DNA of 64,000 nucleotides, taken from Volvariella volvacea V23. Lineage: Eukaryota > Basidiomycota > Agaricomycetes > Agaricales > Pluteaceae. Under the pieces are notes generated by a model. The model saw nothing but the letters and a program-made list of their open reading frames with translations, did not search any database and was not told the DNA's origin. Position numbers and translations under genes: made by a program. The DNA lies in the NCBI GenBank assembly GCA_000349905.1, contig KB722759.1, positions 109,225-173,224 of the forward strand. Direction: 5' to 3'. Shown in pieces: positions 5,756 through 57,794 of the stretch; the first letter of the stretch is position 1, and the number at the start of each line of letters is the position of its first letter.

Positions 5756-8108
5756 CTACGGCGCAGCCGAGAGCAACAGCAAAGGCGACGCAGCCGCCGA
5801 CTGCGAATCCACATTCACCGACTCTTCATTCCCCTGATCATCCACATTCCCATCAACCGACGACGACGACGACGAAGCGCTCAACGCAATAGGCATCGCC
5901 GGCGTCGAACTATTCTGCGCTTGCGAGGCCAACGACCGCGAGCTATTCGCCGAGGACGGCTGTGTCATCGGAGCCGGTCCAGCGGGCGGTCCTCCACCAC
6001 CGACGAACCCTCCCGGTGCAACGGTCCCAGGGTACATCATCCCCATTCCCATCCCATACTTCGCAGCCGACTGCTGGAACGAGCTAAACTCCCTCCTCTC
6101 CTTGGCCTCCCTCGCCTTCATCTTCCTCCTCTCCTCCCTCTCCTCCCTCTCCCTCCTCTCACCAAGCTCGCGCTCGACCCAGGCGTGGACGCCGTGCGCG
6201 GCGCGGACGGGCTGCTTTTTGCAGGAGAGGAGGTACCCCTGGAGTTCGGCGGTCGAGAACTCGTTGGGCGGGATCTGGGCGACAAAGTGTTCTGCGAGGG
6301 ATTCGATGTCGGGCGTTTTTTCTGGTGACGTGGTGTCGGGATCTGTGGGCTTGAGTGACGAGCAAGGGAAGAAGCGGAGGAAGAGGGCGCGGGCTTGGTT
6401 CTTTGTCGCGAGCTTGTATTCGATCCGTTTGTCGATTCTTCCGGGGCGGAGGAGGGCCGAGTCGAGACGGTCGATGTAGTTTGTCTGTACGATGATGGTC
6501 AACCACATACACAAAGGCCCAGGCGATGGAGGAACGTACTGTAGCGAAGAAAAGCTTCCCCTCTTCACTTCCTACCCCGTCGATTACATTGAGCAGCCCG
6601 GATAACGTGACCGCCGATCGACGACCCATCCCCATTGGTTGATCCACTATCAGACCGCCATAGTTGGGTGCTGAGGACGTGTGACCTTCCTCTCCGTCTT
6701 CTCTGGGCGGGAAGGCGCAGTCGATGTCTTCGAGGAGCAGGATGGAGTTTTTGGGTATCGATGATGCAGCGCGCTGTAGGAAACCGTCGTCGACACTAAG
6801 AGCGATGATGATTAGGGAGAGAGTAAGTTGAGAAGGGACTATCGACTTACAAGCCGGAGGATAGACTAAGGGAGTATATTTCAAGACCGAGTTCTCCTGC
6901 CTAATGGACGTCAGTATATACAAGCAGCTTTAGAGCAGTGGTGCATACAATGGCATAAATAGTAGAACCTTGATCGTATGGTCAGAGTGGAACGTGCGTG
7001 ATCTGGAAGAGGTGACTCACTTTTACCGGTCCCAGGAGGCCCATACAACAAGTAACCTCGGCGGTAAGGGATGCCAGCTTCGATGTACCAGTCTTCCGAG
7101 GCGATAAACTCCCGCGCGTCCTTGAGTAATGAATCGATAACGCCGTCTTCGAGAACAATCGAACTCAGCGGACGGCGAACTTTGTGTTTGACGTTATTCC
7201 ACACAAACGCCGGTCCATAGCTAGGCTGAAGCACATTCGTCAACGGATGGTCAAGGGGAAGAGGCGGAAGCGCGCGTTACCATATCCGCCATGTGGATGA
7301 CCACGTTGGGCCGCGAGACCTCGAGGTAGCGCAGTCTAGCTTCCTCCACCAACGCGGACAACACGCTCATCCTCAACGTGTAGATTCTAAACACATCCCC
7401 CCATCGAGATCAGAAATGACAATTGTGGAGAGAGGCACATGAACCACCCACGTCACATAAATAGTCGAACCCATCTGCCCTCCAAGTTGGGACATTGACA
7501 TCGACTGCGTTCCCTTGCTTCTCTTGATCTCGACCCAGTAGCCCTTCCATTTGAACAGCTGAGGCAGGTCAAAAGTCGGGACGTAGTCTGCGTTGCCCTC
7601 GATCTCGAGTTCGGTCGGTTTGATGCCCCATTTCCGCTGAGAGCTCTTTGCTGTAACCCTGAAGTCCTTTGAGCGCCGCCATACGTTTTCCTGAGTCTGA
7701 TGACATAGTTTTTTTCGGCTGTCAGGACCGATAGGGATCAATGGGGCGGTAAAAGGCAACTCACCAAAAAGAGGACGATCCACTCGTACGCAGGGTCTCC
7801 TTCATCAAACTGAGCGGTAACAGAAAATTCTGTCATGCGTGGGCATTGAGCAGGGTCGAGAAAAAGCGTTGGGAGTACGTACTGAAGCGAAAACGCTCCA
7901 TCAACCACTGGCATAATCTCCTTCCCGTCTCGATTACAGTGCCCAAAACTAGTAGTTTGACGCTGTCGAAGAGGTATGTGTTTGCAAATAACGAGGCAAA
8001 GAAGGACAGGCCGAGGATGTTCTTGAATGTGCCCATGTCGGACCATGACGAGGATCGAGGAGTCGAGGAGTCGACGGGTATGCCGAGAGCAGGAATGGGG
8101 ACGTTCAT
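5756..8108 (-). CDS. BCS1-like AAA+ ATPase, copy 2
   Basis: This is a multi-exon gene with the same domain order as copy 1 but more divergent. The start at 8108 ([11 protein letters not shown]) precedes a hydrophobic segment [16 protein letters not shown]. The BCS1_N signature [13 protein letters not shown] lies at about 7570-7520. Walker A GPPGTGKS is at about 7050-7020, Walker [17 protein letters not shown] at about 6760-6710, and the [20 protein letters not shown] segment at about 6480-6420. The C-terminal exon ends with a charged [12 protein letters not shown] helix and a long tail rich in Gly, Ser and Pro. Exon 1 ends at 7883 with donor GTACGT. I see no stop or frameshift. It is tail-to-tail with copy 1, with 259 bp between the stops. 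The role is probably an ATP-driven membrane chaperone; the substrate is unknown. Confidence 0.88.
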
Positions 8109-15326: not shown

Positions 15327-15470
15327 ATGCAAATGCGCCCCAAATCAGCATCTGCACCTGGAGCATCACATGGCGGTGATGTCTCTGTAGCCCCGGGCTC
15401 GACATCGTTGGGCGCTGTACATGGTGAAAACTCGGATACCACTTCAAACGGCACATGTGTAATAGCATGA
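15327..15470 (+). CDS. Candidate mating pheromone precursor ending in CaaX (CVIA)
   Basis: An intronless 47-codon frame, MQMRPKSASAPG...SNGTCVIA-stop, ends in a perfect CaaX box. An alanine in the last position predicts farnesylation. Basidiomycete pheromone precursors are typically 35-80 aa, low in structure and end in such a box, CVIA being a common form. It lies 0.7 kb upstream of the STE3 receptor start on the same strand, the usual context. Against it: the N-terminus is not the common MD-F form, and no clear ER/EH processing pair lies 10-15 residues before the cysteine (HGEN is the nearest). The frame is open further upstream (to 15159), and an antisense frame overlaps it. It may be a degenerate or atypical precursor. 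Confidence 0.4.
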   Translation: MQMRPKSASAPGASHGGDVSVAPGSTSLGAVHGENSDTTSNGTCVIA

Positions 15471-16187: not shown

Positions 16188-17993
16188 ATGCCACCTAATG
16201 GCGACCCTACATATCCTCTCTATCCAATTCTCGCGTTCTTTGGTTTCGTTTTGAGCTTGATACCCCTCCCGTGGCACGTCCAGGCATGGAACTCTGGCAC
16301 ATGCGCCTTTATGCTCTGGACAGGCACAATATGTCTTGCCTATTTCATCAACTCGTTGGTGTGGAGGGGGAGCGTGGAGAATGTCGCTCCTGTGTGGTGT
16401 GATATCTGTACGTCTTATGATCTGTATCCGCTTTAGTGCTGACTTGTGCATGTTTGACATGTAGCGACGAAGCTTACGATTGGAGTCAGCGTTGGGATTC
16501 CGGCTGCGATTCTTTGTATCAGTCGGAGGATGTACAAGATTACGACGCTTCAAGCGGCTTTTTTAACGCGTCAGGACGTAAGCAGCGCTCCCTCTGTCTC
16601 TCTTCTTGAAGCACATCTTAATCTATATCCCCCATAACAGAAACGGCGCATGGTCCTGGTTGACCTCTGCATCGCACTCGGCCTCCCCATCCTCATCATG
16701 GCCCTTCGTAAGTCTCCACCACCCCCAGCGTCCACTAACCCGCACCATAAGAACAGACATCATCGTCCAATCCCACCGATTCGACATCCTCGAAGACATC
16801 GGCTGCCACGCCGTCATCTACAACACCCCGCCAGCCTACCCGCTCATCCTCCTCTGGCCCCTCCTGCTCGGTACCCTCTCCTCCGTCTACTCCGCGCTCA
16901 CCCTACGCGCCTTCTGGCTGCACAAGTCCCTCCTCCGCCAGCACCTCCGCCCCTCCCCCTCCTCTACCATCAACACCTCGCCGTCTCTCACCCTCTCCCG
17001 CTACCGCCGCCTCATCCTCCTTTCCCTCCTCGACATCACGTTCACCCTCCCGCTCTCGATCTACACCCTCTACATCTCCAACAAAGGCGTCTCTCTCTCG
17101 CCTTACACCTCCTGGCGCTCTGTCCACCACGACTTCTCGCACGTCGGGCAGTACAGCGCCGAGATATGGAGAGCGGATGAGGCGCGGGAGAGGGCGGTGG
17201 AGATGACGCGGTGGCTGCCGGTGTTTTGCGCGCTGCTGTTTTGGGGCGTTGTCGGGACGGCGCGGGAGGCAAGGGAGAGGTACGGGCGTGTGTGGAGGAG
17301 CGCGGTGAGGAGGTGGGTTCGCGGAGCTCGGGAAGGGGAAGTGGAGGGGGAGGGTAGAGCGCCTGCGTGAGTGTGCTATAGTGAAGTGCTGCTGCTGCCG
17401 CTCTGTGCTGATTTTTGTGTGGTTTTAGGTGGGTGAGGCCGTTGAGGGCTGATCCGAATGCGACCATTGGCGCGCTGCTCCCCGTCCATGTCCATCGCGA
17501 CCGCGACTACGACGTGCCACATCAAGCGCGTGCGTGGGCGGAGACGTCTGTCTCCTCTACGGTCCACACGCCCAGTCACACAAAGAACTCGCCGAGCCAC
17601 TCCAGCACTAGTTCCAGCACCAGCACCACAGTCGCTGGTCCCCCATTCCCTTCGCACGGATCAGTTTCTCGGGCATCGTACGCGTCAAAAGCGTCGTCCA
17701 TCAGATCGTTCTATACCGCTCCGTCGACTCCAATCCGTCCAACACCGTCTAGGGAGCGTAGGGAACTCAATAATAATGATACTAGCGCGACTCGGACTGG
17801 CAGTGGTAGTCATCAAGCTTCATCTGTGCGTGGTGCTGATATTGCAAGCGACATTTCTGCGCCATCGCCATGTTACGGTCATTCAAGTCTAATTTCAAGT
17901 TCGAGACTCTGTTACTCATCCCCTCGGCGAGCCGGCAGAGAGTGTTACTGTAGATGTAGTGATCTTCAGTCTACGACTGGCGATCAGCTGTAG
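16188..17993 (+). CDS. STE3: STE3-type mating pheromone receptor (GPCR)
   Basis: This is a seven-transmembrane class D GPCR that binds lipopeptide pheromone and signals through a G protein and MAP kinases in B-regulated mating. Five exons (16188-16407, 16465-16577, 16641-16707, 16757-17366, 17429-17993) give 524 aa. The start MPPNGDPTYPLYPILAFFGF leads directly into helix 1 and the family motif LIPLPWHVQAWNSG. WCDISTKL-TIGVSVGIPAAIL (helix 3 region, across intron 1), RRMVLVDLCIALGLPIL, and HRFDILEDIGCHAVIYNTP are hallmark STE3 segments. Helices 5-7 follow (LLWPLLLGTLSSVYSALTLR, LILLSLLDITFTLPLSIYTL, WLPVFCALLFWGVVGTA). The cytoplasmic tail is long and Ser/Thr/Pro-rich (from about residue 340). 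No breaks. It is convergent with the RG-rich gene, 365 bp away. It could be a mating-specific or a non-mating STE3-like receptor; the nearby pheromone gene favours the former. Confidence 0.95.
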
Positions 17994-25775: not shown

Positions 25776-26917
25776 TTTATGCAAAAAAGCTTGAGAGGCA
25801 ATCTCAATGTATCCAATTTCTGACCCAGGACTAGGCGCCTAAATCGGGATGCCATTTAGCACCCAGGGAAACTCGTAACATGGATGTATCTGCTTACCAA
25901 GCCCTTCAATTGAGGCATGCTGACTTTTGTTTTGAAGTGCAAGAAGCTTGGTATCAAGGGAAGCTGAATGGTGTGAGCGAGTGTGCCGTAGTTCACGTCG
26001 TGAGACAATATATGAAATGACTGAGGATCCTTGGGTACTTGAAGAATAAGGCTTGAGGATGCAAAGTTGAGGTTCGAGTTTTCTTTGTAGATTGCGAGCG
26101 AGGCGTGTAGTTAATGGCAACAGGAAGAGGAACAGTGATGTAGCGTACAGTTCAACGACGTGAAATAAGGGATGTGGCATTTCGTTTGAGTGGCACTCAT
26201 TCTTTCGTTTCGCGTATGAGGTCCAGTTTGAGGACACCTTGCTATGACAACACGTGCATTATTCTGACATCCCCACAACCTCTGCCGTGCCGCGATGTAC
26301 GTCCATATACCTGTTCCTCGTCTTTCATCCGAGCATGCAGAAAAGAGGTCGAATGCAAACACTGTTGAAGATTTATTCGTGTTGTGGTGGTGAACTACAA
26401 GCAGGTGTAACATGCACCAAGCTGGAATATTCCTAATGGGGGTATATTTCGGTGAGGGAAGGAAATCTAGTATAGAGAGGGAGTGACTAGGTAGGTTCCA
26501 ATGTCCAACGACGTGAATGATAGTGTAACTGTGAGAGTGCCTACTATGCTCAAAACTAAAACCACCAAGAGATAGCCAATATATAGTAAGCGACCATATT
26601 GTAAACGTGATTGAACGTAAGGATAAAGTACAGAATGCAAGGCGATGCATGCAAGTCATCTAAGGTAAGAATACAAAGGGCAAGCTAATACTCTACTATG
26701 TAAACACGAGAAGAGTGTTTCATTGGACCGAATCTGAATGTCATAAAGGCGCCTGCGCCGGCCGCGCTGAACTCAGGAATACAGAAGACCAAATGTGCGA
26801 GTAGTCAGGAATCGTATAATGTGCGGAATCCTCGCACTAAAGATGTGCAGCTAGAGAAAATATCAGCGCAAGCCCTTCACGAATTTCAAAACCACTCACG
26901 GAACAAGATTTTTTCCA
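25776..26917. other. Intergenic region upstream of the tail-anchored protein gene
   Basis: Short frames on both strands lack motifs. No supported gene or repeat seen. Confidence 0.4.
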
Positions 26918-27091
26918 TCACATGATGGTACAGTTGATGAAAGTCGTCTGTCCTTTGCGCTCATGATTCGCGAGTTCGTGCATGAGGTCGTTTGCCTCGT
27001 TTTGCGCAGCTTGTTCAATGGGACTGAGGACGACTTCCGATGAAGTGGCCATGGAGTCCTCGATGGATGAGAAGGAAAAGAATGTGTCCAT
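26918..27091 (-). CDS. Mating pheromone precursor (CaaX, CTIM)
   Basis: This is an intronless 57-codon gene on the minus strand, hidden because its frame is shorter than the overlapping wrong frame. It starts MDTFFSFSSIEDSMATSS and ends HERKGQTTFINCTIM-stop. It shows all the usual marks of a basidiomycete lipopeptide pheromone precursor. These are the short length, the MD-F start, an acidic and polar pro-region, an ER pair (residues 44-45) ten residues before the end of the mature peptide, and a C-terminal CaaX box. The Met in the last position predicts farnesylation. The predicted mature peptide is KGQTTFINC, farnesylated and carboxymethylated at the Cys; cleavage after ER is inferred from known precursors. 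It would be exported by a STE6-like transporter and read by a STE3 receptor of a compatible mate. It lies 9 kb from the STE3 gene. Confidence 0.88.
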   Translation of the reverse strand: MDTFFSFSSIEDSMATSSEVVLSPIEQAAQNEANDLMHELANHERKGQTTFINCTIM

Positions 27092-28093
27092 TGCGAATTG
27101 AGGGTGAGAAAGAGTGGAAGATTGATAGTGTGGTCGCTCGGACTCAAATTAACGTGTGGGAATGGGGTAAACTTTATGGAAAGAGCTTCCGTCGACAGAT
27201 TTTATAGCATGGCCACCCGGAGGTCCACTCAGGGACAATCAAAGAACTGGTGGCCATTGCGAGTACCAGATGGTACAATTAGGCCTGGCAGCTGTCGTAG
27301 TTTCTACAGCAGCGTCAATGTACAATTACGGTAATCACAGAATCATCACCGTGCGATCGGCAATAAAACGCAGCAATGAATCGGGGAGCGTGTTTTTGCG
27401 AGAGCCTTCCGACCAGTAATGGGTTGGGCATGGCATGGACCCTGAGAAGCCTCGACGTCACGACCTTATTGTTTTGGATGCCAACTTTGGTCAATTGATT
27501 GCAATGAACTTTGTTGCGCAGAGCTTCGGCAATGAGGAAACAAAAGATGGGTGTGATTTAACTGGACGATGATCTGCACACACCTTAAAGGACTCGGTAA
27601 TGTAGGGTTCAAACCTCTTGGTGTGAGTCAGGATGGTTACGATTCCTGCGAGATGGGTCCTCCGTGGGCGCAGTATGCCTTTCAGTCACACAAGCAACAA
27701 GAAAAACAGGCCATAAACCGTATAGTTTGCAAAGCTCCGAAGATCCCGTGCATTGCTCGGGGAGAGTTGGAACGATGATGGAAGACAATAGCAGAGAGTT
27801 GTCTCGTTGGTTGGGCCTTGGGGCCAAACATGGCCCAACACAACTTTGCGATGACGCTCATTTCAAATCCTTCAAGCGAAAAGCAAATTCCAAGCAAGAT
27901 GCTATTGAAGGCATCAAACGGCTAACAAAACGAGTATGTACGAGAACATCTGGACCTCTCTGACCTCTAGATATGGTAGAGCGGTTCACCCCCAGCCGAC
28001 AATTTAAGGTACTCTCGAGGGGCAAAAACGTTTAAGAGGGTGGGCTATATGATATGACTCGTCAGCTTTGGCTCCGAAAGCGATCGTTATAGC
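27092..28093. other. Spacer between pheromone gene and peroxidase
   Basis: It contains the pheromone promoter (27092 upward) and the peroxidase 3' flank. I checked for further short CaaX-ending frames and found none convincing; TGC-ATT-GCT near 27752 continues to an unrelated stop. Confidence 0.4.
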
Positions 28094-29922
<1,829 letters not shown>

Positions 29923-35145: not shown

Positions 35146-37253
35146 TTATTTTTCCTCAACACTGCCGTCTGATTCCTTCAGCTCAACATCCACTACCACA
35201 ACGGAGGGCGAGGAATCTGATGCTTCACTAGCCGTGGCATCCTCCTCCTTTGCTTTTGACAGGGCTGACTCCGGTTTGTTTAGCGTGTCTAGTGGAGGTG
35301 GAACACCGTAATAACCACCAAATCGCCTCTGTTTCCTTAACTCCCGAATTCTCTCTTTTCGCTTCTCTTCTTTCTCCTTTCTCATCCTTTTATCTTCTAG
35401 CTCCTTTCGAACCCATTCTCCAACAGTTGTTACAGCAGATCGGGGCTCGTCGCGATAATTCAAGAGGAATCCTTGGAGTTCTGCGGTGGAGAGCTCGTGC
35501 TCGGGAATTTGCTCGGCAAAGGATTTTGCGAGATTGGTGTGGGAGGCTTTTTTCATCTTTGGATGATGCCTCTTCTGAAGGGGGGAAGATCTGCAGGAAT
35601 AGGGCTTCTGCTTGTGCTTGTGTTGCTAGGCCATATTCGATCCGTTTATCGATCCTCCCTGGTCGGATTAGCGCAGGATCCAAGCGATCAATATAATTTG
35701 TCTGGTAATGTGATATGCACATAAGCTTCTGAGAGTGACCACGAAACGATTTAACGCACGGTAGCAAAGAATATTCTTCCTTCTTCACTTCCTACACCAT
35801 CAATAATGTTCAACAGACCGGAGAGCGTCACCGCGCGTGGTGGCTCGAAGGCATTATCATCCTCATCCTCATCTCCATCGTCGAGTTCCCGAGAAGGGAA
35901 TGCACAATCGATGTCCTCAATGAGAAGAATCGAGCGCTTTGGGATGGCGGATGCAGCGCGTTGCAAGAATCCATCGTCAACACTGGCAAAAACGGTGTGA
36001 AATTTTGGTCAAATTATTCTGTTAGATGACATACAAATTCGCTGAAAGTGGTAGCGTATAGATCTCCAAGTTGAGTTCACCAGCCTGTAGGAGCGCGGGT
36101 GAGCACCTCCATTACTACCCCAATACATTATAGGCATACCAAAGCGTAGATGGTTGACGCTAAAGTTCGATGAACGCGCCAGTTAGCTTCGCCATGTAGT
36201 AAGCAACTGATACTCACTCTTTCCCGCTCCAGGTGGTCCGTACAGCAGATACCCCCGACGATATGGCACCCCAATCTTTGCATACCAGTCTTCGCTATCC
36301 AAGAATCTGCGTGCATCTTGAACTAAAGAGTCGAGCATCCCGTCTGGGAGTGCCACGGAGCTCAATGGACGACGTAATTTGTGCTTTGCATTCGACCAGT
36401 GGAATTCAGAAGCGAATCTCATGCCCTATTAAATCGTCAGAATCATAATAGGCAGGGGGGAAATACAAAGGCTACGTACTGAGTCCACTGAATAGATTGT
36501 GACGGTAGTGTGAGTAGCTTTAGTGTACTCCCGTTTTGCTTCTTCGATAAGGGTTGAGAGTGCAGACATATCAAGGGTATAAATTCTGATTCAATGCAGA
36601 GGGTGAGCCCATCACAACCATGATAGATGCTGCTGCACAACGCACTTGATATAGAGAACGCGTTCCATATGCGACCCATCCGTTCCAGCAGCATTTTGGG
36701 TTCGCGAAATTTCGATCCAATATCCTTTCCAACGAAACAATCGCGGTCTTTCATACATAGGGACGTAGTCAGCCGGCGCGTTTTCTGTGTTTATGGCCCA
36801 TCGTCGTTTCAAGGTCTTCAAGTGGACGCGAAAATCGCGAGTTTGCTTCCACACGTTGGATTGGTTCTTTGTTCGTACAAAGCAGGGAGCCATGAGCCAA
36901 TGACGTTAGGACTCAATCTGAAAGAGACTTACGAGCCAGTGTATCATCCACTCGTACACAGGGTCTCCTTCCGCAAACTCCGCGGTGGTACAGAATTCTG
37001 TCCGTGAAGTATGAGTCGTGATCGCGACTTAGGGGCAGTAAGAGGTACAAGAGAACTTACGAAGTCGAAATCGCTCCACCAACCAGAAAAACAGCTCTCG
37101 AAACAGCTCCAACAACTGTCCAAAAATCAAGAGCTTGACACCATCCACGAACTGCGTCGATCCAGCAAACAGTGCAAAGTTCGTTAAGCCTGCAAAAGAC
37201 GGAAGACTTGAGGTCCACGAGCTCCCACTACTATTGCTTGTGTCAGAAGGCAT
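35146..37253 (-). pseudogene. BCS1-like AAA+ ATPase, copy 3, frameshifted in last exon
   Basis: It has the same exon order as copy 1 and closely similar sequence. The start is MPSDTSNSSGSSW at 37253, then FVDGVKLLIFGQLLELF, the BCS1_N motif FRWKGYWIEIS, Walker A GPPGAGK near 36235, Walker [16 protein letters not shown] near 35930 and [20 protein letters not shown] near 35700-35640. After LFLQIFPPSEEASSKDE the frame runs into unrelated residues and stops at 35390. The expected continuation (FAEQIPEHELSTAELQGFL...) lies in the +1 frame and is open to 35146. The two frames meet at a run of six A (plus-strand T, 35548-35553); five would keep the frame. Either a genuine frameshift that removes the C-terminal helical part, or a homopolymer sequencing error. 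The ATPase core is intact. Confidence 0.85.
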
Positions 37254-37701: not shown

Positions 37702-39196
37702 TTATTGTATGTGAGGAAGATATATGGACCATTGAACATTCTGGTAAGCAGAAGGAGGAAGGTCGCGAAGTGCAATGAGAGGTTGAACAATGAGAACGAT
37801 ACGAGCGATCCCATAAAGAAACGTACCAAGTAGAACAAAAATGAATCCAGCAAGGCCAAGAGCGATGTCGATAAATCTACATATCAACCCGACATAGCCT
37901 TGATTACGAAGATGCGCAAGAACGAAGAAGATACTCATTAGAATCGGTTCAATGGTTATGGTGAGTGATGAAGCTCTCCATAAGACCTGCTCTGCCCTAG
38001 TTGTAAACGGAAAGTCCCAATGTATCAAATGGATTCCGCCGAAAAGCACACCAATAAATGAGCAGGCATATAGCATGGTGAAGCTTTCCCCATCGTTCAA
38101 GTGGCCAGCGGAGTATGGTCTGACACTGGTAGAGTTCTTGACGCCTTCATCCGACATAATATTGAGGAGTGGATCGAATACGAATAGGAAGGGTCCTTTA
38201 ATCAGTTTCTTCCAAACTGTCATCCCCAACGACCGTTTTTCGGGGTCCTCCCTTATCCACTGCCACATGTCCTTCAACTCAGATCCACTCAACCACCCTT
38301 TGAATAATGGCCAACTTATCCAAAGCCCCAGATACCTTTCCGCCACCCAAGAATCTACAGAAGGTCTTCGCATCGGCCCAGTGGACTGGGTTCCATCTTT
38401 CGTAAAGTACACCGGGTACTCGGCATTCAATGGCTTGCTCCACCAGAGGAAATACGTGATGATATTGAGAGTCACAAACGCCAATGTTACCAGCTCTAAT
38501 TGGGTGACGACCAATCCCTGAGCATGACGCGCGATGCACTGGAAGACGAACCAAGACGTCTGCACGACAATCACTTTACTGAGAGAGTTGGCTTTAGATT
38601 TATCTTGTATCTCTTCTTCGGTGACAATGGGTAGGACTATGTCCAAAGTGGGCTTTTCATTTGCGCCGAGATGGGCATTCCCTTCCTTGTCGGTGGTTAC
38701 AACTTGGTAGCATTTTCCGTCGTCGTACATCAGCCCACCCGTTTGTACGAAGAATCCATGGGGTCTTGGTCCAGCCATAATTTGGATGACTTAAGTTTTG
38801 TATGGGTGCAGGGAGTGTAAATAAATACGTACGTTGATACTGTCTCGCAATTCGTGATGCAGCAAATCATTGCCGCATAGCCCACAAAATAAGAACTTCA
38901 GGGGCAAGAAGGGCATATAGAGTCGTTTCGAACTTCTGCAGTACCCGTTCTCCCCAAAAGGCATATCGATCCGGCACGCTTGGGTGAACGGCCACAGAGG
39001 TGCATACAGCAATCGTACTGAGGCAACTATATAGAAGCTTCCAAAGGGACCAGAATTTGGCTAGATCCTGGATACAAATAGCTACGTCCGCGATGGTGGT
39101 TAGAATGCGAGATGAAGAAGTAGGAATCTCCGACGAGGGAATGAGATGTGCAACGCTTTTCGCAAGGAAGAATACAAACAAGCTTGCTAAAAGCAT
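37702..39196 (-). pseudogene. Unnamed multi-pass membrane family, copy A (nonsense plus frameshift)
   Basis: Exon 1 (from 39196) starts MLLASLFVFFLAKSVAHL (signal peptide) and carries the family motif CTSVAVHPSVPDRYAF and APEVLILWAMRQ. A TGA (38867-38869) follows where other copies have a sense codon, and the expected FAASRIARQY follows it in frame. Exon 2 then needs WTKTHGFF, but a run of four G at 38760-38763 (CCCC on the coding strand) puts it out of frame; the long open frame below it can only start at an internal ATG (38778). The remaining 358 codons are open, with helices such as LVTLAFVTLNIITYFLWW and the family ending LRDLPPSAYQNVQWSIYLPHIQ. Two independent defects suggest a pseudogene, or a shortened gene using the internal ATG. 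Confidence 0.75.
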
Positions 39197-39696
39197 TGTG
39201 AAGACATGGAGTTCTCGGGTGATGTCTTGGGCTTATATGAGCGAAGGCCGATTGAAGTAGATCAATAGCTGTAGCATACCGTGTCTATCGGATGACGCCT
39301 GCTCTCCTCAAGGCTGGCTGTGCAGTATTCGAACATGCGGCCTGTTCCATGCCTAGTGCAGAGACGATGATACTCATCCCCTCGTGAAAATAAATCAAAC
39401 CCCCAGAGCTAGAATTTCAACAGAAAAAGAACAGGGGGTCGAGGTCACGCACGGAAGCTGTAACACAGTAACACTATCAAAAACAGAAGTACGATGCAAA
39501 GGAATACCCAATTTATGGCCATCAATAGAAGGAGAAGGAGAGAAATTAGGATGGCTTCAAGAGGGTACCTAGCATGACACAGTACAAACCAAAAGAATTG
39601 AAGCTATGAAGTACCAGACAAATTCCCAAAACAAAACTATACAGGCGACGGATCAAAAAGAACATAAAATCCAAAATCGTTTGAAAACATCCAGAC

Positions 39697-41192
39697 TTAA
39701 ATGTGAGGAATGAAAGCAGACCAGGCTATGTTCTCGTACGCAGAGGGAGGAAGATCGCGAAGGGCGATAAATGCCTCTACGAACAAAGCAGCTCTCGCCA
39801 ACGCGTAGCAGATTCCTCCAAAGACGGCTATCCAATCGTTGACAATAGTAATCCAATTCAACACTGTACCTGTCCATCCTTCGGGCTCGTATTCCCTTTT
39901 AATGAGGATCAAGCTATACCGAAATGCAAAGAATATCGGCACAGCAGTAATGACCATAGAGGAAGTTCTCCACAAGACCTTCTCTGCAGTTGTCGGGACT
40001 GAGTAGTTCCAGGCGATGAGATGAATTCCGCCGAATAGCGCCTCGATGAAAGACGAAAAATAGCCCAACACAACCCAGTCCTCTAGGCTCAATCGTCCGG
40101 AGTAGTATGAACCAACAGAGGCTCCTGACGGACACGATTCATCCATCAATTCCAAAGTGGAATGAATGATGTGCATGATGGGCTGTGTGAGCAGTCGTTT
40201 CCAGACCACCACCACAAAGGATCGCCGTCGTGCTATGTCGTCCTTTAGGGATGGCTGCCTCTGTTCTGCCGATTCACTGTGACCCCATTCCCAGGGCCAA
40301 GTGAATGAGATTCCCCAGTACTGCTCTGATAACCAAGGCTTTGGACGGAGTCGATTCTTCCCTAACGGTCCGGGAACTCGTTCGCCATTCTTGTTGAAGT
40401 AAATTGGATATGCTGCGCTCAACGGCTTGTTCCACCACAGAATATATGTGATAATATTGATCGTGGCGAATGCGAGCATGACGAGTTCTAGTTCGGTGAC
40501 GACCAAGCCCTGAGTATAGCAAGCAAAACATTGAAAAACGAACCAGGACGTTTGCATGACGACAACGAGCTTGCTGAGGAAATCTCCTTTCGCCTTGTCC
40601 TGGATCTCTTCCTCGGAGATTAGGGGCATTCTAATGTCTTTCATCTCTGTTTCCTTCTCTCCACTTAAGTAGATTTCGCCCGTACTAGTCCCATCAACTG
40701 TAAGGACTCGATACTTCTTGCCGTCATAGTAAACGAGACCGCCCATCTGGACAAAGAAACCATGGATTTTTGTCCATTCACATTCTACGATGCATTAGCA
40801 TGCTACTCGCAGCTGCTACTGAAAGTAAGCTCACCTCTATATTGTTTTGCAATTTTACAAGCGGCAAGCCTCTGCCTCATCGCCCACATGATCACAAGTT
40901 CGGGCGCGAATAACGCGAACGCTGTCGTCTTCATTTTCCTCCACAGCTTTCTTCCCGACGAAAGGTTTCGACATGGAATATTAGGGTGTATTGCAATATA
41001 CGTGCAAACAGCAATGGTTCCGAGACAGTTGTAGAGGAGATCCCATATCGATCGAATCTTGGTGGGATCGCGGAGACACCCAGTTACTCTAGCAAATATG
41101 GGGGAAAGTGTGTTTGGATCGTTTGATATGTGCGTAGGGACAGGAGAAGCAAGAGTACGGGCGAGAAAGAATATGAGTAGTGGTCCCAGCAT
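39697..41192 (-). CDS. Unnamed multi-pass membrane family, copy B (intact)
   Basis: Two exons (41192-40835 and 40784-39697) give 481 aa. The signal peptide MLGPLLIFFLARTLASP is followed by CTYIAIHPNIPCRN and FAPELVIMWAMRQR (helix), an intron after KQYR, then ECEWTKIHGFFVQMGG, a short beta-like segment, SEEEIQDKAKGDFLSK, and helices QTSWFVFQCFACYTQGL and LVMLAFATINIITYILWWNKPL. A loop, three to four more helices and the terminal motif LRDLPPSAYENIAWSAFIPHI complete it. The frame is open throughout. I know this architecture from many mushroom genomes as an expanded family without assigned function. It is the second of four head-to-tail copies. Confidence 0.85.
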
Positions 41193-41750
41193 CGCCCAGG
41201 TTGAAGCGTGTCAAATGAGCCCATGAGTGCTCGATATATTTTTATTTCGTACGATTTCATCATGCGTGTGAGGATCTGCAATCAGTCCGAGTTAGGGTAA
41301 GCCCAAGGTCCCATTTGCGAGATGGCCTAAGATCAATCCGGGCGCTGGAAGCCCCTGGTGGCGATCTACCTCGTATTGGCATCCTGCCTATCCATGTTTG
41401 TCGGAAGCAAGGGTAACAGGATCATGGAGAGGACGATACCAGTGATGCTTGCTTTATATAGTTCTATCGTGTCGAATATCGATGAGGAAGGAAGAGGGTT
41501 GAGTATGGCTATGACTCATGTGAAAAACTATATAGCGATTGTAATTGCGTAGTTGAGATGGGAGGATTGCAGAATAATATACGGTCAATCAGAAGTCATC
41601 GGAGGAGGGTTTAAAGAACATACCACGACTACAATAAATGGGTCAATGGAGTAAGGTGGAAACAAATTTCTAGCCCAAAAACAAACAATTGATTGGCTAA
41701 GCTATAAACGCGAACGGAATCGATGACAGCTAGCCGTGATCAAGGATATA

Positions 41751-43237
41751 CTAAATATGTGGGATGTACTCAGACCATAAGACATTCTCGTATGCAGAAG
41801 GAGGAAGATTGCGAAGGGCAAAGAGGGGGAGTACGAGGAGGGCGATTCGAGCAAGTGCGTAAGCAATAGGTGCAATGAAAAACGTCAAGTAACATGCGAA
41901 CCTATGTAAGATATCACCAAAGACACTAAGGTTATTTTGATCAACAGAATGTAGAAGATTCAGAGTAGGTGTGTATAGAGCAGGAAAAGCAGCGACAACG
42001 ACGGATGATATTCTCCATACCAACTTCTCTTTCTCGGTTGGAAAATCAAAGTTCCATCCAATGAGATGAAGCCCACCGAAGACGACGCCAATCGTTGCAG
42101 CTCCATACGCAACCATAATGATATTCTTGAAGGGTATCTTCCCAGAGAAATATGGTGAAACGCTTGTTGCATTGACTTCGAAACACCCTGTCATATCCCA
42201 TAAAGGTCTGAAAATGACCACGAATGGATCCTTGATTAACCTCCTCCAAATCGTCGTCAACAAAGACTGTTTGATATCTTCCTTCACTCGACGCCAAACA
42301 CTCTTCTCGGGTTCAGGAAAGATCCAATCCCAAAGCGAGCCGATCCACCATCCTCGATAACCCTCCGACTGCCAACTATTCGACCTTTGGGTCGCCATCG
42401 ATAGTGGGCCATTCGATCTTTGACCATCCGACTTGAAGTAAATTGGGTAACTTGCATTCAACGGTTTATTCCACCAAAGGAAGTAGGTGATGACATTGAG
42501 TGTCGCGAATGCGAGTGTAACTAGCTCGAGCTCTGTGATGACGAGACCCTGAGCATGGCGTGTGATACACTGGAGAACAAACCACGAGGTTTGCAGGACT
42601 GCAAGTAATTTGCTGAGTAGGTCGCCCTTGGCTTTATCGAGGATCTCTTCTTCGGATACAATTGGCATTCGGATGTCCTTCATCCACTCTTCACGCTCTC
42701 CACCAAGATAAACGTTACCGGTACCATCTCCATCGATGGTGACAACGCGATATATCTTTCCGTCATCGTAGATCAGTCCACCCATCAGCACAAAGAACCC
42801 ATGTGTCTTCGTCCATCCATATGCTGCATTTATCTTAACCGCTGTCACAATAGTAGCAAGGTAAACTGACCCTTGTAGTGGTCCGCTATCTTCGATGCCA
42901 AGATATTCTGTTTCATTGCCCATACGATGGCCGCTTCTGGCGCTAGCAACGCACAAATCGTTGTTTGAAGTTTCTGCTTCACCTTCTTTGAAAAAGAGTC
43001 ACGTCGATCCGGCATATTCGGATGGATGGCAATATATGTGCAGATTGCAATTGTCCCAAAGCAGTTGTACAAGAGTTCTGGAAGAGATCGGACTCTTCTT
43101 GGGTCACGGATGCAACCCGCAGCGTCGACGATGGAATTGAGGACAGGGAATGCTGGCTGGATAGGATTATTGGGTGGGACATCGACGGGATATGCGAGAG
43201 TGCGAGCAAGGAAGAGTATGAGCAGGACTCCGAGCAT
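41751..43237 (-). CDS. Unnamed multi-pass membrane family, copy C (intact)
   Basis: Two exons (43237-42871 and 42823-41751) give 479 aa in an unbroken frame. The signal peptide MLGVLLILFLARTLAYP is followed by CTYIAIHPNMPDRRD, APEAAIVWAMKQ, the intron after HYK (donor GTCAGT), GWTKTHGFFVLMGG, SEEEILDKAKGDLLSK, QTSWFVLQCITRHAQGL, LVTLAFATLNVITYFLWWNKPL, several C-terminal helices and LRNLPPSAYENVLWSEYIPHI. It is closest in structure to copies B and D. The junction lengths add to whole codons, which fixes the family's gene model. Confidence 0.87.
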
Positions 43238-43706
43238 GGGGATAGCTTGAAGATAGATTGCATTAGGACACTTACTGGTCGTATAATTGGGTTATCTCGT
43301 GCCTGGATGCTGGGAAATTTGCTGTGTCCTGTGACTGTCAAAATTCCATGTTAGGACCGATTCAACTCCCTAACGACGCTCTACGTAGAACCCTCAACAT
43401 GGGATTTGCGTCAAATACACGCCAGGGCATATCCTCTCCCGGTATCTTAGTGTCTAGCACTTAGCATTTAAGAAAGAAGGAGAGACGATTCTCGGCCGGG
43501 GGAACAAGGTTACAGAGAAAGATATGGTCTATGTGGCTTGGGAGGATTGTAATATTGAGGCCTGGTGTCGCAATGCATGCTCACACCTATAAAAGCAGCT
43601 ACGAATTCAAACATTCAACAGTTTGGATCGAAGGAAGCAAAGCTACAAGAGTAGAAGACTATACAGAGGGTGGGAGCAGAGACAGCAGGAAAATGTACAT
43701 CTGACA

Positions 43707-45232
43707 CTAAATGTGAGAAGTGTAGGCAGACCAATTCAAGTTTTGGTACGCGGAGGGTGGAAGATCACGAAGCAAAGTGAAGGCTTGTACGAATACATCG
43801 ACTCTGGCCAGTGCATAACCAACACCTGCTGAGACGAGGAACAAATCACCGATGAGTATAGCCCAACCCAACAAAGTACCAGTCCGTTCCTGAGGTTCGG
43901 GCACAGTCCAACTTGAAGGTAGATTTGAAACTAGCGTCAGGGTAAGACCAAAAAGTGCAGGCACGGCAGTGACCACGACCGATGAAACCATCCACACTAC
44001 TTGTTCAACTCTCGTTGGAAAGTCAAAACTCCACGCGATGAGATGGATGCTACCGAATAATATCCCAACGAAGATTGAAGAGTATGCTACAAGAACTCTG
44101 CCCTCTCTATGGAGTTCCCCATTATAATATAGCTTGACGCTTGTGGGCAGAGTGCTTTCTGTTGCAATGTGATCCCCAAACATCAACTCGCTAGTCAGGT
44201 AAAAGCAATACACGAACGGATTTCTGATTAGCTGCTCCCAGATAGCCACCAAGACTGGTCGTTTCGTGAGTCCGTCCTTGATGCGCCCCAAGATGCTCTT
44301 CCCCGATCCGTCTTGACACCACTCCCAAGGCCATGTGAATGAGACTCCCCAATATCTCTCTGAAAGCCAGCCCCGTTCTCGAAGCTGGTCCTTTCGCAAT
44401 GGTCCGGGGATTCGATCACCGTTTTGGTTGAAATAGATGGGATACGTCGCGTTCAGTGGTTTATCCCACCATAGAATGTAGGTGATAATATTGACCGCAG
44501 CGAATGCATGTGTGACGAGTTCCAATTCGGTGAGAGCGAGGCCTTCGACCTGACGGGCGACACATTGGAGGACAAACCAGGATGTTTGCACGACTGCGAC
44601 TAATTTGCTGAAGAAATCCCCTTTCGCCTTGTCCTGGATCTCTTCTTCGGAGACGATGGGCATCCTGATACCCCTCATCCAGGGTTCCCCAAACCTACCA
44701 AGGTGTACATTTCTAGCACCATCCCCAGAAATTGTGAGAACCCAGTAGTTCTTTCCATCGTAGTAGACGAAACCACCCATTTGGACAAAAAATCCATGAG
44801 TCTTCGTCCATCCATATTCTACAATCAGCGGGTTAGCAGGGTCGAGGTTAATGCTACTACAAGCTCACCTCAATACTGCTGCGCGATTTTGGAAGTTACA
44901 TACCTCTGCCTCATCGCCCACATGATGATTAGTTCAGGGGCCAGCAGTGCAAATAGGCTTGTTGTAAGCTTCCTCCACAGCTTTTTCCCCCGCGAAAGAT
45001 TTCGGTCAGGCATGTTGGGGTGCACCGAAATATAGGTGCAGATTGCGATGGTACCGAAGCAGTTCCAGAGGATATCCTAAATCGACCTTATCTTGGTGGG
45101 ATCCCGAATGCACCCATCTGCATCAGTGCCAAGAGCTGAGAGTGCAGAGGCTGAAGAGTTTGAGCCATTTGGTGTAGAGACTGGATATGCGAGGGTGCAG
45201 GCGAGGAAGAGTATGAGGATCAGTCCCAGCAT
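43707..45232 (-). pseudogene. Unnamed multi-pass membrane family, copy D (in-frame TAG)
   Basis: The start MLGLILILFLACTLAYPVS at 45232 leads to DPTKIRSI and then TAG (45077-45079), where copy B has Trp (IRSIWDLL). Downstream the same frame continues as DILWNCFGTIAICTYISVHP, APELIIMWAMRQRY and, after the intron, EYGWTKTHGFFVQMGG, then open to the stop at 43707 with the terminal motif LRDLPPSAYQNLNWSAYTSHI. One TGG-to-TAG change is the only defect I find, so the copy was silenced recently or the base is a sequencing error. If translated from a later ATG (e.g. 44780) it would lack the signal peptide and first helix. Confidence 0.8.
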
Positions 45233-47229: not shown

Positions 47230-50200
47230 ATGTATAACACCGGGGGAAGTATTTCCACATCTTCAGGGTGCGTCTCCACCATCACGACAACGGACGTTTT
47301 GCTGATGGACTTGTTGCTAGCTCGTATTCAGGCATTGGTGGTTCGCCCATCCGTACGGGGGCTGGATCGTCCAACTTGGGGCTCGTACGTGCCGGGTACG
47401 TTAATCTGAAGGAAGACGGCTTTGGGAGTTGGCTATGGAAAAACAAGTGGATGACGCTCAAAGACGACGTTTTGACGATACACAAGTCCGAGGTACGTTC
47501 ACTACCTCGCGTGTGCCTTTTGACCCCCCTGGTTTGCTGAACCTGATGACGTCCCTCTGTTGCCTTGATTGCTTAGGGCTCACAACAACAATCCACGATC
47601 AGCCTACGCGAAATCACCAACATCGAGCGTACAGACTTGAAACCATACTGCCTGGTATTGGACACAAAAGAGAAACGCTATTACCTATCTCTCAAGAATG
47701 ACGAAGAGCTGTACAGCTGGCAAGATGAGATATATTCCCGAACTCCGTTAGGAACGAGCAACCCGACCAACTTTGTTCACAAGGTTCATGTTGGATTCGA
47801 TCCCGTTACAGGTGCATTCACGGTGCGTATATTTCATGCTTTGGACCACCCCCATCGTTATTTTTCCTACTTCTTCCCATGTCTCGACTCCGATGCTCCC
47901 ATGTTGGCACCGTGGACGTAATAACTTCGTTGCTATGGTGGAGTACCACAACTCCGTCATAACTTTCTACCCTTCTTTTTTTCTTCCCGCTGTTTCCACC
48001 CTTACTCTTTCACCGAAATCTTATTGGCCAACAACTGACTTTCTCTCTCTATGTGTGGGGAACGTGTGGCGTGCGACGTCCCGTCCATGTCGCTTTTTTC
48101 TTGCATACGTCGTGTGATGAATGTAGGGCATGCCCGATCAATGGAGTAAACTCCTCAACAAGTCTGCGATTACGAGGGAAGATTATGCGAAGGATCCTCA
48201 GGCTGTATTGGAAGTACTGGAGTTCTACACGGATCATCAAAAGCGAGAGATGGAAGAAGCTATGGGTATGTGCACTTCCCTTCGTACACCATCTCCCCCC
48301 CCTACCCTCCAAGTCCTCTTGACGTTGCTCGTCAACTCATCGGGCCCTCCTGCTGTTGGGCGCCTCCCCGCCTCCGCCCACCATCCACTCCTAACTTTAG
48401 AGGGGTGGAATCTCCGCCCCTTATCCCATCCTCACCGCCTTTTCGCACTCCTAAATCTAACCTCCCCTCCCCCCTCCAGGCGCACCACCACGATTCAACG
48501 CCGGAACCGGCCTAGGCGGCATAGCCAAACTAAGCACCACCACCTCGCCCAACAGCTCGCTCGACCTCCGGCGCCAAGACTCCTTCGCCACGTCCACCAC
48601 GGCCGTCTCGACGAACGGATCGTCGTCGACCCAGCTGAACGGCCTCGACCTCGGCGAGAGCTTCTCGACTGCCGCTTCCAGGGCCGCGGAGCTCGTCAAC
48701 GGCTCAGGTGGCGCCCCCGGATCGCATTTCTCGAGCTCGACGACGGCGTCGGGGAGTGGGAGCTCTGGGTCGGGCTCTGGCTCTGGGTCGGCGCTGGGGC
48801 TGGGAGTGGGAGTGGGCGCTAGTGCAGCTGCGGCTGCTGCTTCCTCGAACGGGGGAGGCGTGCAGGGCCCCCGGCCGCCATTACAGAGTTCAATTTCGTC
48901 ACCTGCTGCTTCTGGTGCGAATGGAGGGGGGATTGGGTCGCTGCAGGCTACGAGACCGGCGCCGTCTGCGCCGCTGAAGCCGTTGTTGACCGCGACGAGG
49001 CCGGCGCCGGGTGTGCCCCCAGCTGCTGCTGGCGGTGCTGGTGCTGGTGCTGGAGGGGAGAAGGACGGGGTTACGCCGTCGTCGGCGGATTTGAGGTCGA
49101 GGCAGAAGGCGCAGGGGCCGCATCCGCATCCGCACGGGCAAGGGGGCGTTGTGCCTGCGAGGAAGGACTCGTTGTCTGTCCAGGCGCAGGCTCAGGCGCA
49201 TAGGGAGAAGGAGAGGGAGAGGGAGAGGGAGCGAGAACAGAGAGAAAGAGAGCGGGAGAGGGAAAANNNNNNNNNNNNNNNNNNNNNNNNNNNNNNNNNN
49301 NNNNNNNNNNNNNNNNNNNNNNNNNNNNNNNNNNNNNNNNNNNNNNNNNNNNNNNNNNNNNNNNNNGGAGCAGCAGCGGGAGGAGAGGGAGAGGGAACAG
49401 CGCGAACGCGAACGCGAGCGTGAGCAGCGGGAGAGGGAGAGGGAGCAGATCAGACAGCAGCGACAACAGCAGCAACAGCAACAGCAGCAGAGGGAGGAGG
49501 AGGCGCAGCGGCCGGGGATGGGCGTTCCTGCTAAATCGGCTCCTGCGAACACGTACCCCGCCACGCAGCCTGCTGGTGGACCGGCAGGGACACTGGTGGG
49601 ACCTGCGCCGATCAAGCCTTTGCAGCCGACGAAGAAGGTGGCAATCAACCCCGCGGCGGTGGCTGCTGCTGAGGAGAAGGCCAAGGCGCAGGCTCAGGCT
49701 CAAACGCAGGCCCAGGCGGGGGGTGTGGCTGCCGCTGCGGCAGCGCTGGAGAAGAAGGACACGGAGAAGAAGGAGCAGAGGCTGAGCAAAATGACAGAGG
49801 TGCAGATTATGGAGAAGCTGAGACAGGTTGTGTCGCCTGATGATCCGAAGATGTTGTATAGTAAGATTAAGAAGGTTGGACAAGGGTGAGTGTGGGCGAT
49901 GAGCTTGCCCGTCGTTATCTGGTTGGCTTGGTTTGGTGCTTATGGTTTGGTTGTGTATAGTGCTTCTGGACATGTGTATGTCGCCAAGACGCTTTCGACG
50001 GGCAAGAAGGTTGCTATTAAGGAGATGGACTTGTCTCACCAACCGCGAAAGGAGCTGATCGTCAACGAGATATTGGTGATGAAGGAAAGCCAGCACCCGA
50101 ATATTGTAAACTTTTTGTCATCGTATCTTGTGAAGAGCACGGAGCTATGGGTCGTTATGGAGTATATGGAGGGAGGAGCACTGACTGATATCATTGAGAA

Positions 50201-50912
50201 CAATACGTTGGAGGAGGATCAGATTTCGAGTATCTGCTTCGAGGTTTGTGTGGCGACCTTTTGTGGTGCGCTTCAGTGCTGATGACTCGTCTTGTAGACG
50301 TGCAAGGGACTAGGGCATCTGCACAGTCAGAGCATCATCCATCGAGATATCAAGTCTGATAATGTCCTCCTGGATGCTCAAGGTCGTGTTAAGATCAGTA
50401 CGTCTGCTTCTTTCCCCTATCCTTCACCTTTCTCACAAACCTACCAGCCGACTTTGGCTTCTGCGCCAAACTCACCGATCAAAAATCCAAACGGGCCACC
50501 ATGGTGGGTACACCCTACTGGATGGCGCCCGAAGTCGTCAAGCAAAAAGAGTACGGCGCCAAGGTGGACATTTGGTCTCTTGGCATCATGGCGATTGAGA
50601 TGATTGAGAACGAGCCGCCGTATTTGGACGAGGAGCCGCTGAAGGCGCTGTATTTGATCGCGACGAACGGGACGCCGACGTTGAAGAAGCCCGAGGCGTT
50701 GAGTAGGGAGCTGAAGAGCTTCTTGGCGGTGTGTTTGTGTGTGGATGTGGCTAGTAGGGCTACGGCGCAGGAGTTGTTACAGGTAGGGTGGTTTGTTGCC
50801 TGATGTGGGACTGGTACTGATGGTTTTGTTGTAGCACGAATTTTTGAAGAAGGCTTGTGCGCTTTCGGGGCTTGCACCGCTCTTGCGATTCAAGAACAAG
50901 CAAGCGTCATGA
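47230..50912 (+). CDS. CLA4: p21-activated protein kinase, CLA4 type (PH-CRIB-kinase)
   Basis: This Ser/Thr kinase acts downstream of Cdc42/Rac in polarity, septation and morphogenesis. The start [13 protein letters not shown] at 47230 is followed by a PH domain ([20 protein letters not shown] ... [18 protein letters not shown], about 47390-47730). Next is a CRIB motif ([23 protein letters not shown], split by an intron at 47823-48126). A long low-complexity linker contains Ser/Gly, Ala/Pro and Arg-Glu repeats (48480-49790), interrupted by a 100-N gap. The kinase has [19 protein letters not shown] (catalytic Lys), [20 protein letters not shown] and [13 protein letters not shown], ending [10 protein letters not shown]. 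The presence of PH plus CRIB separates it from STE20. The true linker length is unknown because of the gap. Confidence 0.93.
49200..49500 (+). repeat. Purine-rich hexamer repeat coding Arg-Glu and Gln runs
   Basis: GAGAGG/GAGCGG-type units on both sides of the gap encode alternating R-E residues, followed by CAG/CAA codons giving a glutamine run. All reading frames are open here, which explains the long spurious frames on both strands. Confidence 0.85.
49267..49366. other. Assembly gap of 100 N inside the CLA4 linker
   Basis: Exactly 100 N lie between two purine-rich GAGAGG-type stretches coding RERERE repeats. The size is the conventional placeholder, so the missing length is unknown. Confidence 0.98.
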
Positions 50913-56446: not shown

Positions 56447-57794
56447 ATGCTCCTCACTGACTTTGTTCTCGCTGCCCTTGTGCGCTCCCGTGGAGCGCCC
56501 GTCTCTGTAACCAACCACACCTCTAGCCCTTTATACTCCGTTGGGCTTGTCAATATACCGTCCAACACAGATACCTGTGGGCGTACCACAGTCGACATTC
56601 TCTATGGATGTTTCACAGTTATCCTCCTCTGTACACATTTTGCCATACACCACAATATTCCCGATCAAAACGATTCACAATTGAGGATTTCGTGGCTGAA
56701 GCTCAAAGAGATGCTATAAGCGATATTGGCGCCAGAAGCCATGATAATGTGGGCATTGAGGCAAAGAATCATGGCACATAGGATTGCACGCTCAGATTTT
56801 GGCAAAAGTAAGTTTATCTTCAAGTGCACATCGCGACGCTAATATGAAAAAGGGCATAAATGGACGCCGGCACACGCGTTCTTTCTTCAAATGGGTGGAT
56901 TAATGTTGAAACATGACAATGGGGAATGCGAAGTCGTGGTGAAGAACTGGCATAAGATGGAACTAGAAACGCCTTCCGGTAAAAGGGTTTCCGAGTTGCC
57001 AGCAATCAGGAAGAAAGAACTCGACGCTCTCGGAAGAGGTGACCCATTTTCCAAAGCCATCGTCGTCTTCCAAACGTCTTGGTATATTGTCCGGTGCATC
57101 ACTCGTCTAGCCCAGGATCTCATGATGACGGAGCCTGAGTGGATCACGCTTGCATTCGCAACGTTGAATGTTGTGACGTATCTGCTCTGGTGGAACAAGC
57201 CGTTGAACGTGCTGTATCCTATATACTTCGATGAGGACGGAAAACGAGTGGATGGACCAGAAGAGGAGGTGAGAGTGTTAGCAGATAATCATTTTAGACA
57301 CTGTAGCCACGAGGCTCTCAGCATGGCATCATTAGGGCGCCTCATGAACCAATACCTTGGCATTTCTTATCTTTCCGTATCATTTCCGAAGGAACACATT
57401 TATATAGAATTGTATCTACGATAGGAAAATACAGTTTTAAGCTACTACGCTTTGGATGTGATCTCGTCAGAGAGGTGGAGAGGATGAGGATGAAGTGGAT
57501 GAAGAGGACCAAGAGCCTGAGGAAAGACTGAAAGGAGAGGGTAGAGAAGGGCTAAAATGGTACAGAAAAGTGACATGGTTGTGGGAGGTTGTGACAAGAA
57601 ATTGGAATGGGGCATGCTGTTGGTTGAGGGATATCCGAGAGAGCATCAAATTGCATGGCGTAGTGAATACATTAATCAAGAGGCCACTCACAACCATGTG
57701 CACACCACTCCATGAGATGATTGATGAAGAAAAGATCCACAGACCAACAACACAACAGGAAACAGCCACTAGTTTTGATAGAAACACCCTATAA
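56447..57794 (+). pseudogene. Membrane-family member, copy F (nonsense, truncated)
   Basis: The signal-peptide start MLLTDFVLAALVRSRG at 56447 leads to CTHFAIHHNIPDQND and then a TAA at 56717-56719 inside the helix, after which ILAPEAMIMWALRQRIM continues in the same frame. Exon 2 (from about 56850) carries HKWTPAHAFFLQMGG, GRGDPFSKAIVVFQTSWYIV and WITLAFATLNVVTYLLWWNKPL and stops at 57424. A possible further exon from about 57465 (DEEDQEPEERLKGEG ... GVVNTLIKRPLTTMCTPLHEM) ends at 57794. The C-terminal helices and the LRDLPPSAY ending are absent. It is the most diverged copy and a pseudogene. Confidence 0.75.

Follow-up and report, generated by a model that had tools for sequence, protein, structure and literature searches.

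The window analysed here is a 64,000-nucleotide stretch of contig C24 (C24:109225-173224) from a genome of 35.4 Mb in 54 contigs. It carries a short minus-strand frame with the marks of a mating-pheromone precursor, along with a pheromone receptor gene, a kinase gene and some smaller features:

15327..15470, + strand: weak second-precursor candidate of 47 aa with SNGTCVIA at its C-terminus; the STE3 start follows 717 bp downstream
16188..17993, + strand: STE3 pheromone receptor gene (PF02076 match and hand-built open model of five exons and 524 aa, with seven hydrophobic segments and an uncertain 3′ end)
26896-27147, − strand: TTG-start ORF of 83 aa, overlapping the precursor ORF in a different frame (ORF listing at 50 aa)
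26918..27091, − strand: pheromone precursor ORF, 57 aa, MDTF...NHER-KGQTTFINC-TIM (translation, motifs, PF08015 match, simulations, codon score)
27201..27206, − strand: TATAAA, 115 bp upstream of the precursor ATG, a probable core promoter
47577..50800, + strand: PAK kinase gene in pieces, with PBD and protein kinase domains over the Pfam cut-off and a PH match below it

What does the short frame encode? Translation of 26918-27091 (−) gives 57 residues followed by a stop, MDTFFSFSSIEDSMATSSEVVLSPIEQAAQNEANDLMHELANHERKGQTTFINCTIM, bearing out the MD-F start, ER pair and CTIM end that the preliminary description had read in a 57-codon minus-strand frame. The protein begins with MDTF, a start of the MDxF type, and finishes in the CaaX box CTIM with the stop codon directly after it. 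Its charged couplet ER occupies residues 44–45 of 57, the R being 13th from the C-terminus and the E ten residues before Cys54, a position within the published ranges of 9–15 residues from the C-terminus (PMC4136793) and 10–15 residues before the CaaX box (PMC5473757). The leader preceding the ER pair holds eight acidic residues and not a single K or R. The codon score of this frame is the best among its six frames and, the ORF being short, modest in itself: it ranks 7 of 145 among the window's ATG ORFs of 45–70 aa, or 3 of 145 with training on family-supported exons only, so that six or two ORFs of the same length class stand above it, depending on the training set. Searched against its own genome at E ≤ 10, the protein matches itself only. 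The warning that length-cut ORF calling would miss the frame proved justified as well: with ATG/GTG/TTG starts and a 60-aa limit, only the wrong-frame 83-aa TTG ORF is returned, and a listing run at 20 aa found no ATG-only ORF of 60 aa or more overlapping 26800–27200. That annotation overlooks short pheromone genes is an already recognised problem; in Rhizopogon, according to PMC5473757, about half of the pheromone genes were found only via a CaaX script.

When compared with Pfam, the sole family reported for the precursor at E ≤ 10 was PF08015 (Pheromone), matched weakly (17.6 bits, E 0.0083, residues 1–49) and below the curated cut-off of 22 bits, with the best stretch stopping short of the CaaX end. 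Short, divergent pheromone precursors are hard to detect by similarity (PMC4101180), and because of this we use ‘member’ of the family on the strength of motifs and context, not of the Pfam score. A genome search with the PF08015 profile returned zero matches and missed the precursor ORF itself too, and is thus uninformative on absence. The strings KGQTTFINC, FINCTIM and SNGTCVIA were not found in the searched literature; as papers mostly show such sequences in figures, this result carries little weight.

The 57-aa length compares with 57–61 aa for PEphb3.1-3.4 of Pleurotus eryngii (PMC4136793), 48–60 aa for 11 distinct phb precursors of Rhizopogon (PMC5473757) and 51–72 aa for the precursors of Pleurotus ostreatus matB, which resemble the one described here in having a CaaX end (PMC13108863). 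The MDxF start, charged couplet and CaaX end are common to our precursor and the B-locus precursors of P. eryngii and Rhizopogon, with CTIM here in place of the CIIS, CIIA, CVIS, CVII and CVIV given for Rhizopogon (PMC5473757). In an alignment with the 11 published Rhizopogon precursors, what they share with ours was largely limited to the MDxF start, the zone of the couplet and the C-terminal Cys; such scant similarity beyond the ends is usual in the PF08015 family.

The surroundings match the B-type pheromone/receptor region that had been proposed, with STE3 genes, a PAK kinase gene and the HD/MIP genes on another contig supporting this assignment. STE3 (PF02076) matches number 12 in the genome and fall at four places; C24 carries three STE3 genes, namely the window copy and two more. 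These places and the homeodomain region are as follows:

window 16.2-17.3 kb: STE3 match (PF02076)
C24:194562-195592: STE3 match (PF02076)
C24:200498-201462: STE3 match (PF02076)
C2:751652-752755: STE3 match (PF02076)
C7:405445-406785: two homeodomain matches, divergent (profile search of the genome)
C7:409062-410576: peptidase M3 (MIP-type) gene beside the homeodomain pair (profile search of the genome)

The STE3 model ends at 17993, leaving 8.9 kb to the precursor ORF, in agreement with the 9 kb stated beforehand. This spacing is wider than in tightly paired loci; the Grifola precursors sit 10.8 and 12.5 kb from their receptors (PMC10607315). Between the two genes lie unassigned ORFs and, near 22.7–23.4 kb, at least one chromodomain gene, for which a weak ABC match was also obtained. 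The PAK kinase, possibly of Cla4-type, includes a 100-base N gap (49267–49366), and the genome has PBD matches at three further places. Together, the homeodomain pair and the MIP-type gene represent the usual HD locus, which lies on C7, separate from the STE3 cluster on C24. This may reflect a tetrapolar arrangement, with P/R and HD loci unlinked, though the two may be linked past the contig ends.

How does this arrangement compare with known mating loci? In MAT B of Serpula lacrymans (PMC3564976), an STE3 cluster, pheromone genes and a PAK kinase share one scaffold, as here, the kinase lying ~19 kb beyond the cluster in that species and ~20 kb from the precursor in ours. Serpula has three or four precursors close to its receptors, whereas we find one that is convincing. 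Further precursors may be hidden, because two nearby stretches read N throughout: C24:83743-109224 (25.5 kb), directly left of the window, and C24:173280-188497 (15.2 kb), just right of it. Pleurotus ostreatus matB (PMC13108863) likewise has several STE3 genes per haplotype, with the HD locus on another chromosome (on another contig here). It is flanked by MFS and UbiA genes, whereas no UbiA match was found on readable C24; UbiA was accordingly rejected as a Pleurotus-like neighbour, with 0 of the 10 matches in the genome on C24.

Could so short a frame be a chance ORF with look-alike ends? Its shortness, its Pfam score under the cut-off and search patterns that postdate sight of the ORF all favour such a view. 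A loose pattern (MD, charged pair, CaaX) gave nine matches in 100 third-order Markov simulations of 162,900 readable bases (142,900 of C24 plus 20,000 of C2), or 0.09 expected per 162.9 kb against one in the real sequence, this single match being the precursor ORF. When the C24 piece (142.9 readable kb) was simulated 60 times, a strict pattern (MDxF, pair, aliphatic CaaX) yielded 0 unspliced matches, with one simulation giving one spliced match, while the real piece contains one match out of four MDxF starts. Both sets of figures, which argue against chance, flatter the ORF somewhat because the patterns were drawn up with the ORF already in view, on the basis of its own features and the motifs of the family. 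A one-intron MDxF search for spliced precursors in the same 142.9 readable kb and in 20 kb around the STE3 gene on C2 recovered the known ORF only. That the sole Pfam match is to the expected family and that the ORF lies within an STE3 cluster tell against coincidence as well, and we regard a chance origin as highly improbable.

A different alternative accepts the peptide as real, farnesylated and pheromone-like, and denies it mating-type specificity: the ORF might be a conserved ‘non-mating-type’ gene near the B region, or what is left of a B locus that has lost its role in determining mating type, as in a bipolar species. Non-mating-type peptides and receptors are known from the literature (PMC8305134, PMC4101180 and PMC8161036), and an STE3 gene at 8.9 kb, not adjacent, would suit this view. 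The predicted peptide, however, has one G, unlike the G-rich non-mating peptides with the consensus GGGSGNGAYC given in PMC8305134; and in P. cinnabarinus non-mating precursors come in groups whose members resemble one another (PMC4101180), whereas the precursor described here is alone in its genome. Neither point is strong, and we consider this alternative unlikely, though a serious contender.

We thus favour, with a probability of about 0.9, the view that the 57-aa product is a precursor from which an Agaricomycete-type mushroom-forming fungus would make a farnesylated, carboxymethylated mating pheromone, and that the ORF lies in the B (P/R) mating region of this fungus. Direct observations are the frame with its motifs, its rarity by chance, a weak match to the family and the presence of STE3 and PAK genes nearby, and the PF08015 match, chance controls and codon score sustain the original proposal of a lipopeptide mating-pheromone precursor. 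Once exported, the peptide would activate STE3 receptors belonging to another B allele, thereby permitting nuclear migration and clamp fusion, but would not activate the receptor encoded by its own haplotype. A mating-type-specific role of this kind is, in our judgement, probable, and from what is usual in the family one would expect the mature sequence to be specific to the B allele.

Which peptide would be released from the precursor? Methionine in the X position of a CaaX box favours farnesyl. It is found among the X residues of such boxes (PMC10607315; PMC12387193). Precursors of this kind are cut at the charged couplet and farnesylated on the CaaX cysteine, with trimming and methylation to follow (PMC8305134, PMC4136793, PMC12387193 and PMC5473757). 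Along this pathway, a cut at the NHER site would leave ERKGQTTFINC, Cys54 would be farnesylated, and TIM would be lost before methylation. The preliminary description had instead predicted the 9-mer KGQTTFINC, from a cut after ER; the 11-mer agrees with published conventions no less well than this putative 9-mer. Within the couplet zone NHER, a cut after R gives the 9-mer and a cut before E the 11-mer, both within the published length ranges of 9–15 (PMC4136793) and 9–14 residues (PMC4101180), and ER and NH are both among the cleavage motifs listed in PMC8305134. Cleavage between NH and ER would place the couplet at the N-terminus of the mature pheromone, as in the account of PMC5473757, and N at −2, consistent with the D/N at −2 and proline at −4 of the cutting site set out in PMC4136793 except that −4 is L, not proline. 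On balance, we lean somewhat towards the 11-mer.

The ORF at 15327–15470 deserves separate mention. Counting back exactly ten residues from its Cys leads to a Glu, the same spacing as in ERKGQTTFINC, and TATTTATA is present 136 bp upstream of the ORF. It has no MDxF start and no match in Pfam, and its codon score ranks 89 or 117 of 145, other frames scoring better. That it represents a cryptic second precursor of unusual form in the B haplotype, directly upstream of STE3, strikes us as very unlikely. If true, precursor searches demanding MDxF would overlook a class of B-locus pheromones.

The 57-aa precursor gene would provide a B mating locus with its ligand, and the 9- or 11-residue farnesyl peptide that it predicts can be tested. 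It could serve as a marker for B typing, and it adds another case to those that automatic annotation tends to miss. The finding extends a well-known family pattern and overturns nothing.

Several further genes were seen in passing. ICMT (PF04140), the methyltransferase family responsible for the finishing step on such pheromones, has 18 matches in the genome, seven of them on C31 within 262360–352168; this apparent expansion may in part reflect separate exons of a single gene. At 28000–29920 (−), about 1 kb away from the precursor ORF, the window holds a class II (manganese/versatile-type) peroxidase gene, one exon of which matches manganese peroxidase 4 in the PDB (4bm1, E 1.4e-35); this gene suggests a white-rot fungus. 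Four related tandem ORFs of 349–390 aa occupy 37702–44780 (−), with a shorter similar ORF at 56891–57424 (+); two ORFs of this set were scanned against Pfam and gave no match. Lid domains of BCS1-like AAA ATPases occur at two places in the window, 5759–6571 (−) and 35149–35625 (−).
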